Of a DNA stretch of 64,000 nucleotides, positions 20,545 through 35,621 are shown in pieces. This DNA is from Parolsenella massiliensis (GTDB lineage Bacteria; Actinomycetota; Coriobacteriia; Coriobacteriales; Atopobiaceae). Location: contig NZ_LT671675.1 in the NCBI RefSeq assembly GCF_900143685.1, forward strand, positions 719,111-783,110, written 5' to 3'. Position 1 is the first letter of the stretch. The number at the start of each line of letters is the position of its first letter. Position numbers and translations under genes: made by a program. Below the pieces are notes generated by a model. That model was not told where the DNA came from. It made no database searches and worked only from the letters and a program-made list of their open reading frames with translations.

Positions 20545-21744
20545 ATGAGCGATATCCAGCAGTATCTCGACGTCCTGTCTGGCCTTGACTTCAAGGGCAT
20601 GTACAACAACGACTTCCTGCACACCTGGGACAAGACGACCGACGAGCTGAAGGCCCTCTACGCCACCGCCGCGGCCCTGCGTAACCTCCGCGAGCGCAAC
20701 ATCTCCTCCAAGATCTTCGACTCGGGCCTGGCCGTGTCGCTGTTCCGTGACAACTCCACGCGCACCCGCTTCTCCTTCTCCAAGGCCTCCAACCTGCTCG
20801 GCCTCGAGCTCCAGGACCTCGACGAGAAGAAGTCCCAGATCGCCCACGGCGAGACCGTCCGCGAGACCGCCACGATGATTTCCTTCATGGCCGACGTCAT
20901 CGGCATCCGTGACGACATGTACATCGGCAAGGGCGACGCCTACATGAAGGAGGTCTCCGAGTCCGTCCAGCAGGCCTACGCCGACGGCGTCCTCGACCAC
21001 CGTCCGACGCTCATCTCCCTGCAGTCCGACTCCGACCACCCCACGCAGTCCTCTGCCGACATGCTCTACCTCATCGAGGAGTTCGGTGGCCTCGAGAACC
21101 TCAAGGGCAAGAAGGTTGCCGTGACCTGGGCCTACTCGCCCTCCTACGGCAAGCCGCTGTCCTGCCCGCAGTCGCTCATCTCGCTGCTCCCGCGCTTCGG
21201 CATGGACGTCACCCTGGCCCACCCCGAGGGCTACGACCTCATGCCCGAGGTCGTCGAGCGCGCCAAGGGCTACGCCGCCGAGAACGGCACCTCCTTCAAG
21301 CAGGTCAACACGATGGCCGAGGCCTTCGAGGGCGCCGACATCGTGATCCCGAAGTCCTGGGCTCCGTATGCCGCCATGGAGAAGCGCACGAACCTCTACG
21401 CCGAGGGTGACGATGCCGGCATCGCCGCGCTCGAGAAGGAGCTTCTCGCCCAGAACGCCACGCACCAGGACTGGTGCTCCACGACCGACCTCATGGCCAA
21501 GACGGCCAACGGCCAGGACACGATCTTCATGCACCCGCTGCCCGCCGACATCTCCGGTGTCTCCTGCGAGCACGGCGAGGTCATGGCCGACGTCTTCGAC
21601 ATGCACCGCGACGGCATGTACAAGGAGGCTTCCTACAAGCCCTACGCCATCGCTGCCATGATGTTCCTCCAGAAGGTTGCCGACCCCGTCGCGACGCTCA
21701 AGGCGCTCGAGGCCGCCGGCACCCCCCGCTGGTATCAGGCCTAA
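20545..21744 (+). CDS. ygeW: Knotted carbamoyltransferase YgeW
   Basis: A 399-residue carbamoyltransferase (ATCase/OTCase superfamily) with strong site GGGGAGAGG before ATG 20545. The carbamoyl-phosphate loop is FRDNSTRTRFSF (near residues 68-79), followed by a helix with KKSQIAHGETVRETA. The HPTQSSADML motif near 160-169 and a C-terminal HPLPADISG block are also present. In the purine pathway it can run in the phosphorolytic direction, turning a ureido/carbamoyl intermediate into carbamoyl phosphate for the carbamate kinase encoded next. That direction is inferred from the neighbouring kinase and from the known cluster. Confidence 0.93.
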   Translation: MSDIQQYLDVLSGLDFKGMYNNDFLHTWDKTTDELKALYATAAALRNLRERNISSKIFDSGLAVSLFRDNSTRTRFSFSKASNLLGLELQDLDEKKSQIAHGETVRETATMISFMADVIGIRDDMYIGKGDAYMKEVSESVQQAYADGVLDHRPTLISLQSDSDHPTQSSADMLYLIEEFGGLENLKGKKVAVTWAYSPSYGKPLSCPQSLISLLPRFGMDVTLAHPEGYDLMPEVVERAKGYAAENGTSFKQVNTMAEAFEGADIVIPKSWAPYAAMEKRTNLYAEGDDAGIAALEKELLAQNATHQDWCSTTDLMAKTANGQDTIFMHPLPADISGVSCEHGEVMADVFDMHRDGMYKEASYKPYAIAAMMFLQKVADPVATLKALEAAGTPRWYQA

Positions 21745-21791: not shown

Positions 21792-21876
21792 GCCGGCCCC
21801 CACTGGGGGCCGGCGCTAGTTGGGACCCCCTCGGCCACCTCGCCATCCCCCCCCTCAAGTGGGGTGGCCGAGGGGG
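21792..21876 (+). promoter_or_regulatory. Two strong hairpins and a C8 tract before carbamate kinase
   Basis: GCCGGCCCCC (21792-21801) / GGGGGCCGGC (21805-21814) has a 3-base loop. CCCCCTCGGCCACC (21826-21839) / GGTGGCCGAGGGGG (21863-21876) encloses a loop containing eight consecutive C (21847-21854) and CTCAAGTGGGG, which allows alternative pairing. Neither stem is followed by a T-run, so attenuation or mRNA processing is more likely than a simple terminator. Confidence 0.55.
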
Positions 21877-21911: not shown

Positions 21912-22853
21912 ATGTCCAAGCGCATCGTCGTTGCCCTCGGCGGCAACGCCCTTGGCAAGAACCTTCCCGAGCAGATGCAGGCCGTCCAGGTGACCTCCAA
22001 GGCCATCGTGGACCTCATCGAACAGGGCAACGAGGTCGTCGTCGTGCACGGCAACGGTCCTCAAGTTGGCATGATCGCCAACGCCATGACCGAGCTGACG
22101 CGCAGCGATCCCGAGAAGTACATCCCGTGCCCGCTGTCCGTCTGCGGCGCCATGAGCCAGGGCTACATCGGCTATGACCTGCAGAACGCCCTTCGCGAGG
22201 AGATGGAGCGCCGCGGCATCGCCAAGGGCGTCGCCACCGTCCTCACGCAGGTCGAGGTCGACCCGGCAGACCCGGCCTTCGAGAACCCCACGAAGCCCAT
22301 CGGCTCGTTCATGAGCAAGGAGGAGGCCGAGGGCCTCAAGGAGAGCCGCGGCTACGACTTCGTCGAGGACTCCGGCCGAGGCTATCGCCGCGTCGTCGCC
22401 TCCCCGAAGCCTAAGCGCATCGTCGAGCTCGACACGATCTCCTCGCTCGTGGCAGCCAACCACGTGGTCATCGCCTGCGGTGGCGGCGGCATCCCCGTCG
22501 AGCCCACGGGCAACCACCACCTCAAGGGCGCCGCTGCCGTTATCGACAAGGACTTCGCGGCCGAGCTTCTCGCCGAGTCCCTCGATGCCGACTACCTCGT
22601 GATCCTCACGGCCGTCGAGAAGGTCGCCGTGCGCTTTGGCAAGCCGGACGAGGAGTGGCTCGACGCCCTCACGCCCGAGCGCGCCCACGAGCTCGCCGAC
22701 GCCGGCGAGTTTGGCAAGGGCTCCATGGAGCCGAAGGTCCTGGCTGCCGCGGCGTTCGCCGAGAGCAAGCCTGGCCGTTCCGCCCTCATCACGCTGCTCG
22801 AGAAGGCGCGTGACGGCATCGACGGCAAGACCGGCACCACCATTCGCGCCTAA
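21912..22853 (+). CDS. arcC: Carbamate kinase (ArcC/YqeA family)
   Basis: A 313-residue amino-acid-kinase-family protein; ATG 21912 lies behind GAACGGAGTCCCCC. It has the nucleotide/phosphate glycine motif GGNALGKNL (near residues 9-17), EVVVVHGNGPQVG (near 40-52), CGGGGIPV (near 194-201), and the TAVEKVAV segment typical of carbamate kinases. It converts carbamoyl phosphate and ADP to ATP, CO2 and ammonia, the energy-conserving step of the island. It follows ygeW, which should supply the carbamoyl phosphate. The hairpin-rich gap suggests expression is tuned separately. Confidence 0.95.
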   Translation: MSKRIVVALGGNALGKNLPEQMQAVQVTSKAIVDLIEQGNEVVVVHGNGPQVGMIANAMTELTRSDPEKYIPCPLSVCGAMSQGYIGYDLQNALREEMERRGIAKGVATVLTQVEVDPADPAFENPTKPIGSFMSKEEAEGLKESRGYDFVEDSGRGYRRVVASPKPKRIVELDTISSLVAANHVVIACGGGGIPVEPTGNHHLKGAAAVIDKDFAAELLAESLDADYLVILTAVEKVAVRFGKPDEEWLDALTPERAHELADAGEFGKGSMEPKVLAAAAFAESKPGRSALITLLEKARDGIDGKTGTTIRA

Positions 22854-32831: not shown

Positions 32832-34743
32832 TTAGGCCGCCAGGGCTGTCGCGTCGGTGGCGTCCCCGGCGGAGGCGCTTGTGGCATCGCTGCCGGTGGT
32901 GGCGTTGGGCACGCTGCCCTCGGGCTCGTCACCCGCGGCATTGGTGCTCGTGCCGGGCTCATGGCCAGTTGTGTCGCCGGCATCGGGCGTGGTGCCCTGC
33001 TCGGCAGCCGGTGCCTCGGGTGTGGTGCCCTGGTTAGTGTCCGGGGCCCCGGGAGTCGCCGGCACCGCGGCCGCGTCGCCCTCATTGGCGGGATTGCCTC
33101 GGGGCACGTACTCCGCCTTCGTGTAGTACGTCGCCGCGACCCCGACCGGCACGTTTGCGATCGCGTACGCGGTCCCGTCGGCCCCGTAGAGGGTGCTGGG
33201 GAGCGAAGTCGACGTCAGGCTCTTCGTCCACTGGCCCCCGAGAGTCAGTGAACGGAGCGAGGAGCAGCCGTTGAACATTTCGCCAACGTTGCTGACCTTG
33301 GCAGAGCTCCAGTTCGAAAGGTCAAGTGAAGCGAGCGAGGAACAGCCGTAGAACGTGCGAGACATGCTCGTGACGCTCGAGACGTCCCACTTCGAGACGT
33401 CGAGCGTTGTGAGCTTGCTGCAGGTCTCGAACATGCCGGATATGAGCGTGACGCTCGAGACGTTCCAATTCTTCACGTCGAGCGTTGTGAGATTGCTGCA
33501 GGTCTCGAACATGGCGCGCATATCCGTGACCTTCGAGACGTCCCACTTCTTCACGTCGAGAGTTGTGAGCTTGCTGCAGGCCCTGAACGTGCTATGCATG
33601 TTCGTGACCTTCGAGACGTCCCACTCCGAGACGTCGAGCGCAGCGAGCGAGGAACAGCCATAGAACGTGGCGGCCATGCTCGAGACGCTCGAGACGTTCC
33701 AGTTCGTCACGTCGAGCTTGGCAAGGGTAGAACAGCCGTAGAACATGTTGGACATGTCCGTGACGCTCGAGACGTGCCACCCCGAGACGTCGAGCTCAGC
33801 GAGCGAAGAACAGCCGTAGAACGTGCCGTACATGTTCGTGACGCTCGAGACGTTCCACTCCGAGACGTCGAGTGTGGCGAGCGAGGAACAGCCGTAGAAC
33901 GTGCCGATCATGCTCGTGACCTTCGAGACGTTCCACTTCGAGACGTCGAGCGTGGCGAGCGAGGAACAGCCGTAGAACGTGATGCGCATGCTCGTCGTTC
34001 TCGACGTGTCAAGTTTGGCAAGGTTTGCCGTGGTGAGATTCTTACAGCCCTTGAACCAGCCCTCCATCGTCTCGGGGCTGATGCCCTCGTCGACGGCGGT
34101 CACGCTCGTAAGGCGGTCGCTTCCGTTAAAGAGATTCGTCATGTTCTCGATGCCCGTGACCACCTTGGTGACCGTGCGGCCGTCGAAGGTGTCGCCGACG
34201 TCGGGGACCTCGAACCTCTTGTAGAGGCCGGCGGTGTTATCCGAATACCACACGGCGAAGGCCTGCTTCTGCCCGAAGGAGAAGTCGACCTTGGCGAGCG
34301 CGGAGGCACCGTTCGCGGCGGCCTCGAGCGTGGAGGCGTTGGCGGTCGCGTCGAGCTTGCTCACGGACCAGTCGACGGAGACGCTTGCGCCCGGGGCGAG
34401 CGTCTCGCCGGTCTTAGCCTGCGAGAAGGAGCCGTTCTGGTAGGAGAACCACTGGGACTTGGCGTCGCCCGCGACGGACGAGCTTGCGGAGAGGGAGATC
34501 GCCTTGTCGGAGGAGGTGACGGAGACCGCGCCCAGGCTGACCTCCTCGGAGCCCACGTTCTTCATCTCCCAGCTTGATGGTGTGATGACGTTGCCGTCGT
34601 GCTTGACGACGCAGGGGACGGTCGTGGGGACGTTCACGTCGACCTGGCCCTCCGCCGCGAGGGCGGGGGGGGGGAGCGGCGACGAGCGCGGCCACGAGCG
34701 AGAGAGCGCCCGCGAGGGCGCCGAGGAGCCTACTCCTGGTCAT
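32832..34743 (-). CDS. BspA-like leucine-rich-repeat surface protein, frame broken at a C10 tract (phase-variable OFF state)
   Basis: ATG 34743 (AAGGGGGC upstream) encodes a signal peptide (SRLLGALAGALSLVAALVAAP), then the frame is lost in ten consecutive C (34674-34665 on this strand). Removing one C restores a PPPALAAEG cleavage site and joins to the 601-residue downstream frame (about 636 residues in all). The mature part has an N-terminal beta-rich region (NVPTTVP...; VTSSDKAISLS) and then about eleven 26-residue DUF285/BspA repeats (FYGCSSLATLDVSKWNVS). The tail is rich in Pro, Thr, Glu and Gly with no LPXTG. Such repeats mediate adhesion to host proteins or other bacteria. Start GTG/ATG near 34637 would give an unexported form. 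The gene overlaps the MPQTG gene by 14 bases. Confidence 0.85.
33240..34075 (-). repeat. About eleven 78-bp repeats inside the BspA-like gene
   Basis: Units of 78 bases (26 residues) follow each other with period 78; the FYGC/FETC codons recur near 33264, 33342, 33420 and so on to 34044. Near-identical DNA blocks (for example around GAACAGCCGTAGAACGTG) could recombine and change the repeat number. Confidence 0.85.
34665..34674 (-). repeat. Homopolymer G10 (C10 on the coding strand), candidate phase-variation tract
   Basis: Ten G on the + strand between GGGC and AGCGG, the longest mononucleotide run seen in the window. It sits at the signal peptide/mature junction. C9 puts the gene in frame; C10 does not. 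Confidence 0.85.
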
Positions 34744-35041
34744 CGTGTGCCCCCTTGTGATCGCGCGAAGTCACGGCGAGGCCTGCCGCACACGCGGCGG
34801 CGCCCGCCAGCAGGAACGGCGTCCAAGCTGCTGGATCTCCCGTCTGCGGCATGCGGCCGCCGGCGGGCCTTGCGGACGTCTGGTTGTTCTCGCCGTCCTG
34901 GTCCCAACCGGGGCCGGCGACGATGGTGACTTCGGTCGTGCCAGTGTCGGACGCCTGCGCGAGCGCGGGTGCCGGGCAGAGCACGAGGGCCCCGGCAAGC
35001 GTTAGCGCGGCGGCTGTCGCCGCTCCTCTTCTAGCGTCCAT
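34730..35041 (-). CDS. Small secreted protein with MPQTG sorting-like signal
   Basis: A 103-residue protein. An N-terminal signal peptide (AATAAALTLAGALVLCPAPA, cleavage after ALA) is followed by TGTTEVTIVAGPG, a short mature domain with an acidic GWDQDGENN segment, then MPQTG (near residues 66-70), a hydrophobic helix (WTPFLLAGAAACAAGLAV) and a short charged tail. That is the layout of a sortase substrate with Met in place of Leu. Small LPXTG proteins of about 110 residues are standard members of WxL/Csc cell-surface clusters. It lies 10 bases after the WxL-like gene and overlaps the LRR gene by 14. No sortase gene is in the window. Confidence 0.8.
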   Translation of the reverse strand: MDARRGAATAAALTLAGALVLCPAPALAQASDTGTTEVTIVAGPGWDQDGENNQTSARPAGGRMPQTGDPAAWTPFLLAGAAACAAGLAVTSRDHKGAHDDQE

Positions 35042-35051
35042 CGACTGCCGC

Positions 35052-35621
35052 CTACTGAGCGGAACCCGCGGCGAGCGTCCACGTGACGGTCGCGGCTTTC
35101 TGGGCGGAGGAGAGGTTGAGGTTCACGTTGGCGACCCTGCCGGTCGAGGCGACGGCGACGGAGTCGGTCGCGGAGCCCGCGTAGCCCATGTCCCAGGTCG
35201 CCTTTCCGGAGAGGTTGTCGGGGTGGGCGGCGGAGACGCCGTTGAGCTCGAAGGACAGCGCGTTGGCGTCGCTGGACTTCGAGGCATCGGCGACGAGCTT
35301 CCAGTCCGTGCCCTCAGTGGAGGCGGACATGCCGGTCACGTGGATGGGGAAGACGGACTTGTTGGTGATCTTGGTCGCCTCGGCGGAGGGGCCGACGAGG
35401 GTGCCATCAGCCTTGGCGGCGAACGGGATCACCGTGGGGACCTCGAAGTTGAGCTGGTCTTTGCCTTGGGTGTCCTTCTCGGCCTGGATGGTGACCTCAG
35501 TCGAGCCGGTGTTGCCGCTCGTGACGGCGTTGCCAGCGGCAAACGCCGCGACGGGCGCGAGGGTGGTCGCGGCAAGCGCGAGGCCGCAGGCGACGGCCGC
35601 GGCGTGCTTCTTGATAGACAT
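35052..35621 (-). CDS. WxL-like secreted surface protein
   Basis: A 189-residue secreted protein; ATG 35621 has AAAGAAGG upstream and the in-frame extension to 35672 looks non-coding. The signal peptide (AAAVACGLALAATTLAPVAA) ends in AFA-A. The mature part begins TGSTEVTIQAEKD, has EVPTVIPF like the NVPTTVP start of the LRR protein, and carries two W-x-L motifs: DWKL near the middle and TVTWTLAAGS at the C-terminus, the position where WxL domains end. WxL proteins bind peptidoglycan without covalent anchoring. The assignment is by motif only; overall similarity may be remote. Confidence 0.72.
   Translation of the reverse strand: MSIKKHAAAVACGLALAATTLAPVAAFAAGNAVTSGNTGSTEVTIQAEKDTQGKDQLNFEVPTVIPFAAKADGTLVGPSAEATKITNKSVFPIHVTGMSASTEGTDWKLVADASKSSDANALSFELNGVSAAHPDNLSGKATWDMGYAGSATDSVAVASTGRVANVNLNLSSAQKAATVTWTLAAGSAQ

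Follow-up and report, generated by a model that had tools for sequence, protein, structure and literature searches.

At the end of a predicted signal peptide, a tract of ten C on the coding strand separates the start of a surface-protein gene from an intact LRR body lying one base out of frame, and we assign a probability of about 0.7 to the reading that this C10 is a slipped-strand phase-variation (contingency) tract. Slipped-strand on/off switching is a well-known mechanism. In the form proposed here, DNA polymerase would gain or lose a base within C10 and thereby shift the frame where the signal peptide ends. A third of the length classes would lead to the synthesis and export of an adhesin-like protein of about 636 residues, the others would end in a short junk product (for the assembled class, 109 aa), and neither of the two operon genes upstream would be affected by the switch. 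Tract length would then be expected to vary in the population, the LRR product would act in binding at the cell surface, and selection would maintain the tract. The features of the window, i.e., the whole stretch of 64 kb that was analysed, and the long G/C tracts of the genome are collected in Table 1.

Table 1. Features around the C10 tract (window positions) and long G/C tracts of the genome (genome positions)
Feature	Position	Strand	Basis
C10 homopolymer, c-region of signal peptide, candidate slippage site	34665..34674	-	sequence; such runs avoided elsewhere in CDS
Start codon and signal peptide n/h-region, MTRSRLLGALAGALSLVAALVAA	34675..34743	-	translation
Shine-Dalgarno-like AAGGGGG, 6 nt 5' of ATG 34743	34750..34756	-	read from sequence
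Out-of-frame product as assembled, 109 aa: signal peptide and junk tail	34414..34743	-	translation; no Pfam match
Intact body: unique N-terminal domain, DUF285/BspA-type LRR repeats, Pro/Thr-rich tail	32832..34637	-	Pfam
Upstream gene, 103 aa, signal peptide, MPQTGD and hydrophobic stretch	34730..35041	-	sequence; no Pfam match
First gene of apparent operon, 189-aa exported protein	35052..35621	-	sequence; no Pfam match
G10, 107 nt 5' of 966-aa surface protein	genome 138940		
G9, intergenic	genome 359860		
G11, 3' end of hexapeptide acyltransferase, out of frame, beside sugar-biosynthesis genes	genome 366260 (L030:9929-10411)		
G12, 5' end of 1520-codon MPQTG protein with FctA/SpaA domains; signal peptide and state uncertain	genome 583457		
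G10, the C10 of window 34665-34674	genome 753775		
G10, intergenic	genome 801405		
G11 on coding strand, 44 nt 5' of 2280-aa LPQTG protein with FctA/SpaA domains	genome 1191133		
G10 and G9, Shine-Dalgarno position of two HAD hydrolases	genome 1217699 and 1600857 (L034:4000-4009, L039:4001-4009)		
G9, spacer of TTGACA-18-TAGTGT	genome 1319000		
C9, 3' end of 1037-aa ORF	genome 1514746		
C10, upstream regions	genome 1581032 and 1830088		

The C10 tract and the split reading frame

Around the tract, the minus strand reads ...GTCGCCGCT CCCCCCCCCC GCCCTCGCGGCGGAG..., the ten C being positions 34665-34674; this length is the consensus of a single assembly. In line with the first-pass annotation, it is the longest single-base run of the 64-kb window, where the second-longest G/C run is a C8 at 21847-21854. 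The latter lies in a GC-rich, inverted-repeat-like stretch in the gap between the genes at 20545-21744 and 21912-22853. Translation from the ATG at 34743 gives MTRSRLLGALAGALSLVAALVAAPPPRPRGGG..., in which a short basic n-region is followed by a hydrophobic core and by prolines, and stops after 109 aa. The frame of the LRR body is open over 601 codons, from 34637 to 32832, and is one base off that of the signal peptide. The two parts are joined only at tract lengths divisible by three, and arithmetic on the sequence gives, for a tract one base shorter, a joined frame of 636 aa with the junction ...VAAPPPALA-AEG. The earlier description of an out-of-frame C10 between signal peptide and LRR protein, with an ALA-A junction and 636 residues at C9, is therefore borne out by the minus-strand sequence and by this arithmetic. 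An alternative start for the LRR frame 5' of the tract was also considered and is ruled out, since the 34 open codons up to the TGA at 34742 contain no ATG, GTG or TTG. Because its frame lacks a start codon upstream, the assembled sequence yields no exported LRR product, nor would a start codon lying 3' of the signal peptide give one.

With ten bases, the tract lies in the length range regarded as prone to slippage (8 or more bases), and its length modulo three sets the frame entering the LRR body. The gene behind it appears intact, combining the 601 open codons with strong Pfam matches (DUF285, 2.9e-67, in three stretches; LRR_5, 8.1e-20), and its tandem DUF285/LRR_5 repeats place it in the BspA/DUF285 family. 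A fixed one-base insertion would instead make it a plain, dead pseudogene, in line with the broken frame as assembled and the patchy distribution of the gene. However, the body carries no further stop or frameshift, and the lesion falls exactly in the sole long tract, where reversion is easy, which makes a pseudogene rather improbable. Phase variation is favoured because the frames split exactly at the tract and no other lesion is present in 601 codons.

RNA polymerase is known to slip at homopolymer runs. Slippage of this kind, or a ribosome shift on the C run, could supply a fraction of full-length protein from a fixed ten-base tract, and the RNA is strongly folded around the tract. That folding is not unusual (z -1.7, not significant) and thus does not single out RNA structure as a driver. 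Reframing at the RNA level makes no sense for the long tracts that lie 5' of genes in this genome, and the nearest measured precedent is slippage of DNA (PMC9187656); we consider it very improbable.

The LRR gene is the last of three in an apparent operon, followed on its 3' side by panD and a thymidylate synthase gene. Its ATG at 34743 is overlapped by 14 nt by the gene at 34730-35041, and the 189-aa product of the first gene shares with the LRR protein a short VPT-P-DG-PS motif (E 2e-4, 24 residues). No sorting signal was found in the LRR protein, whose C-terminus (...GDATDATALAA) has no PF00746 match; it thus falls outside the LPXTG, sortase-anchored proteins, while its neighbour at 34730-35041 has an MPQTGD-type signal. 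No match to the LRR protein exists in the single further species of the genus, and its N-terminal domain has no full match among 140 genomes of the family. A scan of genome contigs returned distant DUF285 relatives only, and a search of plasmids and viral contigs returned none. The lack of an orthologue with a tract in the genus mate and in the 140 family genomes was counted against phase variation.

Run-length statistics and the quality of the consensus

The distribution of G/C runs was examined in a 304-kb sample (the window together with 20 stretches of 12 kb each), which contained 258 runs of length 5, 17 of length 6 and none of length 7. Over the whole genome, there are 15 runs of length 7 and 11 of length 8, two of these 11 inside an assembly artefact. 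With the artefact excluded, runs of 9 to 12 occur at 13 places, while extrapolation of the decay from length 6 to 7 gives about 0.3 runs of 9 or more. Long G/C tracts are a population apart from the shorter runs. In 218 kb of called CDS, synonymous codons were then resampled with the genome's own usage as a model of chance. Runs of 6, 7 and 8 were expected 64, 13.8 and 4.5 times but observed 7, 0 and 0 times, and Pro-Pro was never encoded as CCCCCC in the same 218 kb (22 expected). The coding sequence of this genome strongly avoids G/C runs of six or more, and the C10 in the signal peptide is a marked exception. The resampling rejects C10 as a chance product of codon use. Phase variation is favoured because G/C runs are avoided in coding sequence and yet 13 runs of at least nine exist.

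The artefact, at genome positions 1500675-1500930 (L036:9176-9440), separates an ABC ATPase gene from the gene that follows it and reads C10-A-C24-G-C22 and more; it comprises poly-C runs of 10, 24, 22 and 15, one A18 run and a near-exact stretch of what we take to be a Nextera adapter. The C-terminus of the ABC ATPase is probably wrong in this record. Poor sequence has entered the assembly consensus, and reliance on one assembly with a poly-C/adapter artefact elsewhere was counted against phase variation. The consensus at C10 could likewise be a miscall, the long tract being real but recorded one base off and the gene being in frame, whether or not tract length varies in natural populations. 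Annotated G-tract lengths can also differ from measured ones in Bifidobacterium breve (PMC9187656), and the three tracts of this genome that are possibly intragenic at surface loci are all out of frame as assembled. A switching tract is, however, expected out of frame two-thirds of the time, and sequencing error is not expected to give the uniform strand bias found in 13 of 13 long tracts. A miscall is thus unlikely, and an error of one base would leave a nine-base tract at which slippage is still likely.

Genome-wide tracts, strand bias and promoter-like context

At least five of the 13 long tracts lie in or just 5' of genes for surface proteins or surface sugars (753775, 138940, 366260, 583457 and 1191133), in a genome where the LPXTG anchor family (PF00746) matches at only seven places, a count that weak anchors escape. 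As assembled, the G11 at 366260 replaces the conserved C-terminal tail of the acyltransferase and may switch the acylation of a surface sugar. Similar tracts are found in relatives. At one locus (L207), a G10 falls within the signal-peptide sequence of a pilin-like VWA/FctA protein of 1011 aa and is out of frame as assembled; at two others (L175 and L178) tracts lie 5' of DUF285 surface proteins. In relative G021 the tracts have a scattered appearance, and some of them may be noise from assembly. Phase variation is favoured because at least five tracts touch surface or surface-sugar genes and the tracts of relatives are similar. Counted against it, several long tracts occur at non-surface genes, namely the two HAD hydrolases and a priA-like position. 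The G9-G10 runs of the hydrolases sit exactly at the Shine-Dalgarno position, where their length could tune translation.

All 13 long tracts follow one strand rule, irrespective of gene direction, the plus strand carrying G in the tracts at 138-801 kb and C in those at 1191-1830 kb. The shorter runs do not share this bias (three with and six against at length 8; five with and ten against at length 7). The probability of such a bias is 2.4e-4 with fixed halves and 0.019 when any two change points are allowed. Because the pooled skews flip sign between the halves (GC +0.015/-0.015, AT -0.040/+0.038), an origin near 0 and a terminus near 1 Mb are suggested. Every G/C run of at least nine would then have its G on the leading strand, a rule that runs of 7-8 do not follow. 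For the tracts listed in genomes G001 and G017, the rule appears less strict.

On the G strand, the dinucleotide TA directly follows the tract in 5 of the 13 own tracts, as compared with 2.5% after G4-G6 runs; this background is mostly coding and GC-richer than intergenic DNA, so that the binomial p of 1e-5 is too strong. Poly-G runs straight into a -10-like hexamer starting with TA at five own loci (L030, L032, L035, L037 and L038) and in one relative (L182), an arrangement suggestive of tracts in promoter spacers and of switching at the transcriptional level. In a promoter scan of all tracts, only the spacer-type promoters at 1319000 and L182 exceeded shuffles; the latter has a G10 as spacer of a TTGAAA-18-TATACT promoter before an exported protein (shuffle p 0.002). 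Tentatively, and at odds we put below even, the locus may belong to a genome-wide set of poly-G/C switches acting either on the frame of a signal peptide or on promoter spacing through a G run abutting a -10-like TA..T box. Tracts of at least nine would be retained only where the leading strand carries the G, the direction of replication deciding which of them grow or survive.

Known systems and significance

The closest known arrangement, an experimentally demonstrated switch, is that of the sortase-dependent pili of B. breve UCC2003, where a G10/G11 tract separates the Sec signal from the LPXTG body in the pilins bbr_0113 and bbr_1889; measurements on cultures grown from single colonies gave mixtures of lengths, and the joining length was enriched in mice (PMC9187656). 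As in the LRR locus, export signal and body lie in two frames around a G/C tract of 10-11 bases, the loss of one base joins them, and the length recorded in the reference genome is one that does not. The B. breve tract, in contrast, has G on the coding strand and sits in the first gene of a sortase/pilin operon whose product bears an LPXTG signal, whereas the LRR locus has C on the coding strand of the last operon gene and encodes a DUF285 LRR protein without sorting signal. Length variation was measured in B. breve, while the LRR locus is known from one assembly. Gardnerella, also an actinobacterium, has many long G/C tracts within surface-protein genes or 5' of them, and length variation has been shown for one gene (PMC11287997), but the tracts concern other families (GA module, Rib, FIVAR) and lie mostly upstream of the ORF. 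Phase variation is favoured because of these two precedents (PMC9187656; PMC11287997), and by analogy their results may carry over to the LRR locus. The LRR protein shares tandem DUF285/LRR_5 repeats with BspA/DUF285 surface proteins and differs from them in its N-terminal domain, which lacks a full-length relative in the 140 family genomes. The literature searched contained no BspA/DUF285 protein switched by a signal-peptide C tract, nor a description of phase variation in the bacterial group of the host. Judged by GC content, size and gene content, the host is probably an actinobacterium of Coriobacteriales type.

The proposal of a phase-variable surface protein made by the first-pass annotation fits the anatomy of the locus, the excess of long G/C tracts and their occurrence at surface genes both in this genome and in related ones, and it agrees with the B. 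breve precedent. Its further claims, of an OFF state in the sequenced strain and of both states coexisting in a population, are not yet supported; the apparent OFF state may reflect a miscall or the state of a minority.

If phase variation operates at C10, the on/off switching of surface proteins by poly-G/C tracts, known from experiments in Gardnerella and bifidobacteria, would extend to a further group of actinobacteria. The analysis provides a defined list of tracts for deep sequencing, and it suggests a testable link between the direction of replication and which homopolymers become switches.
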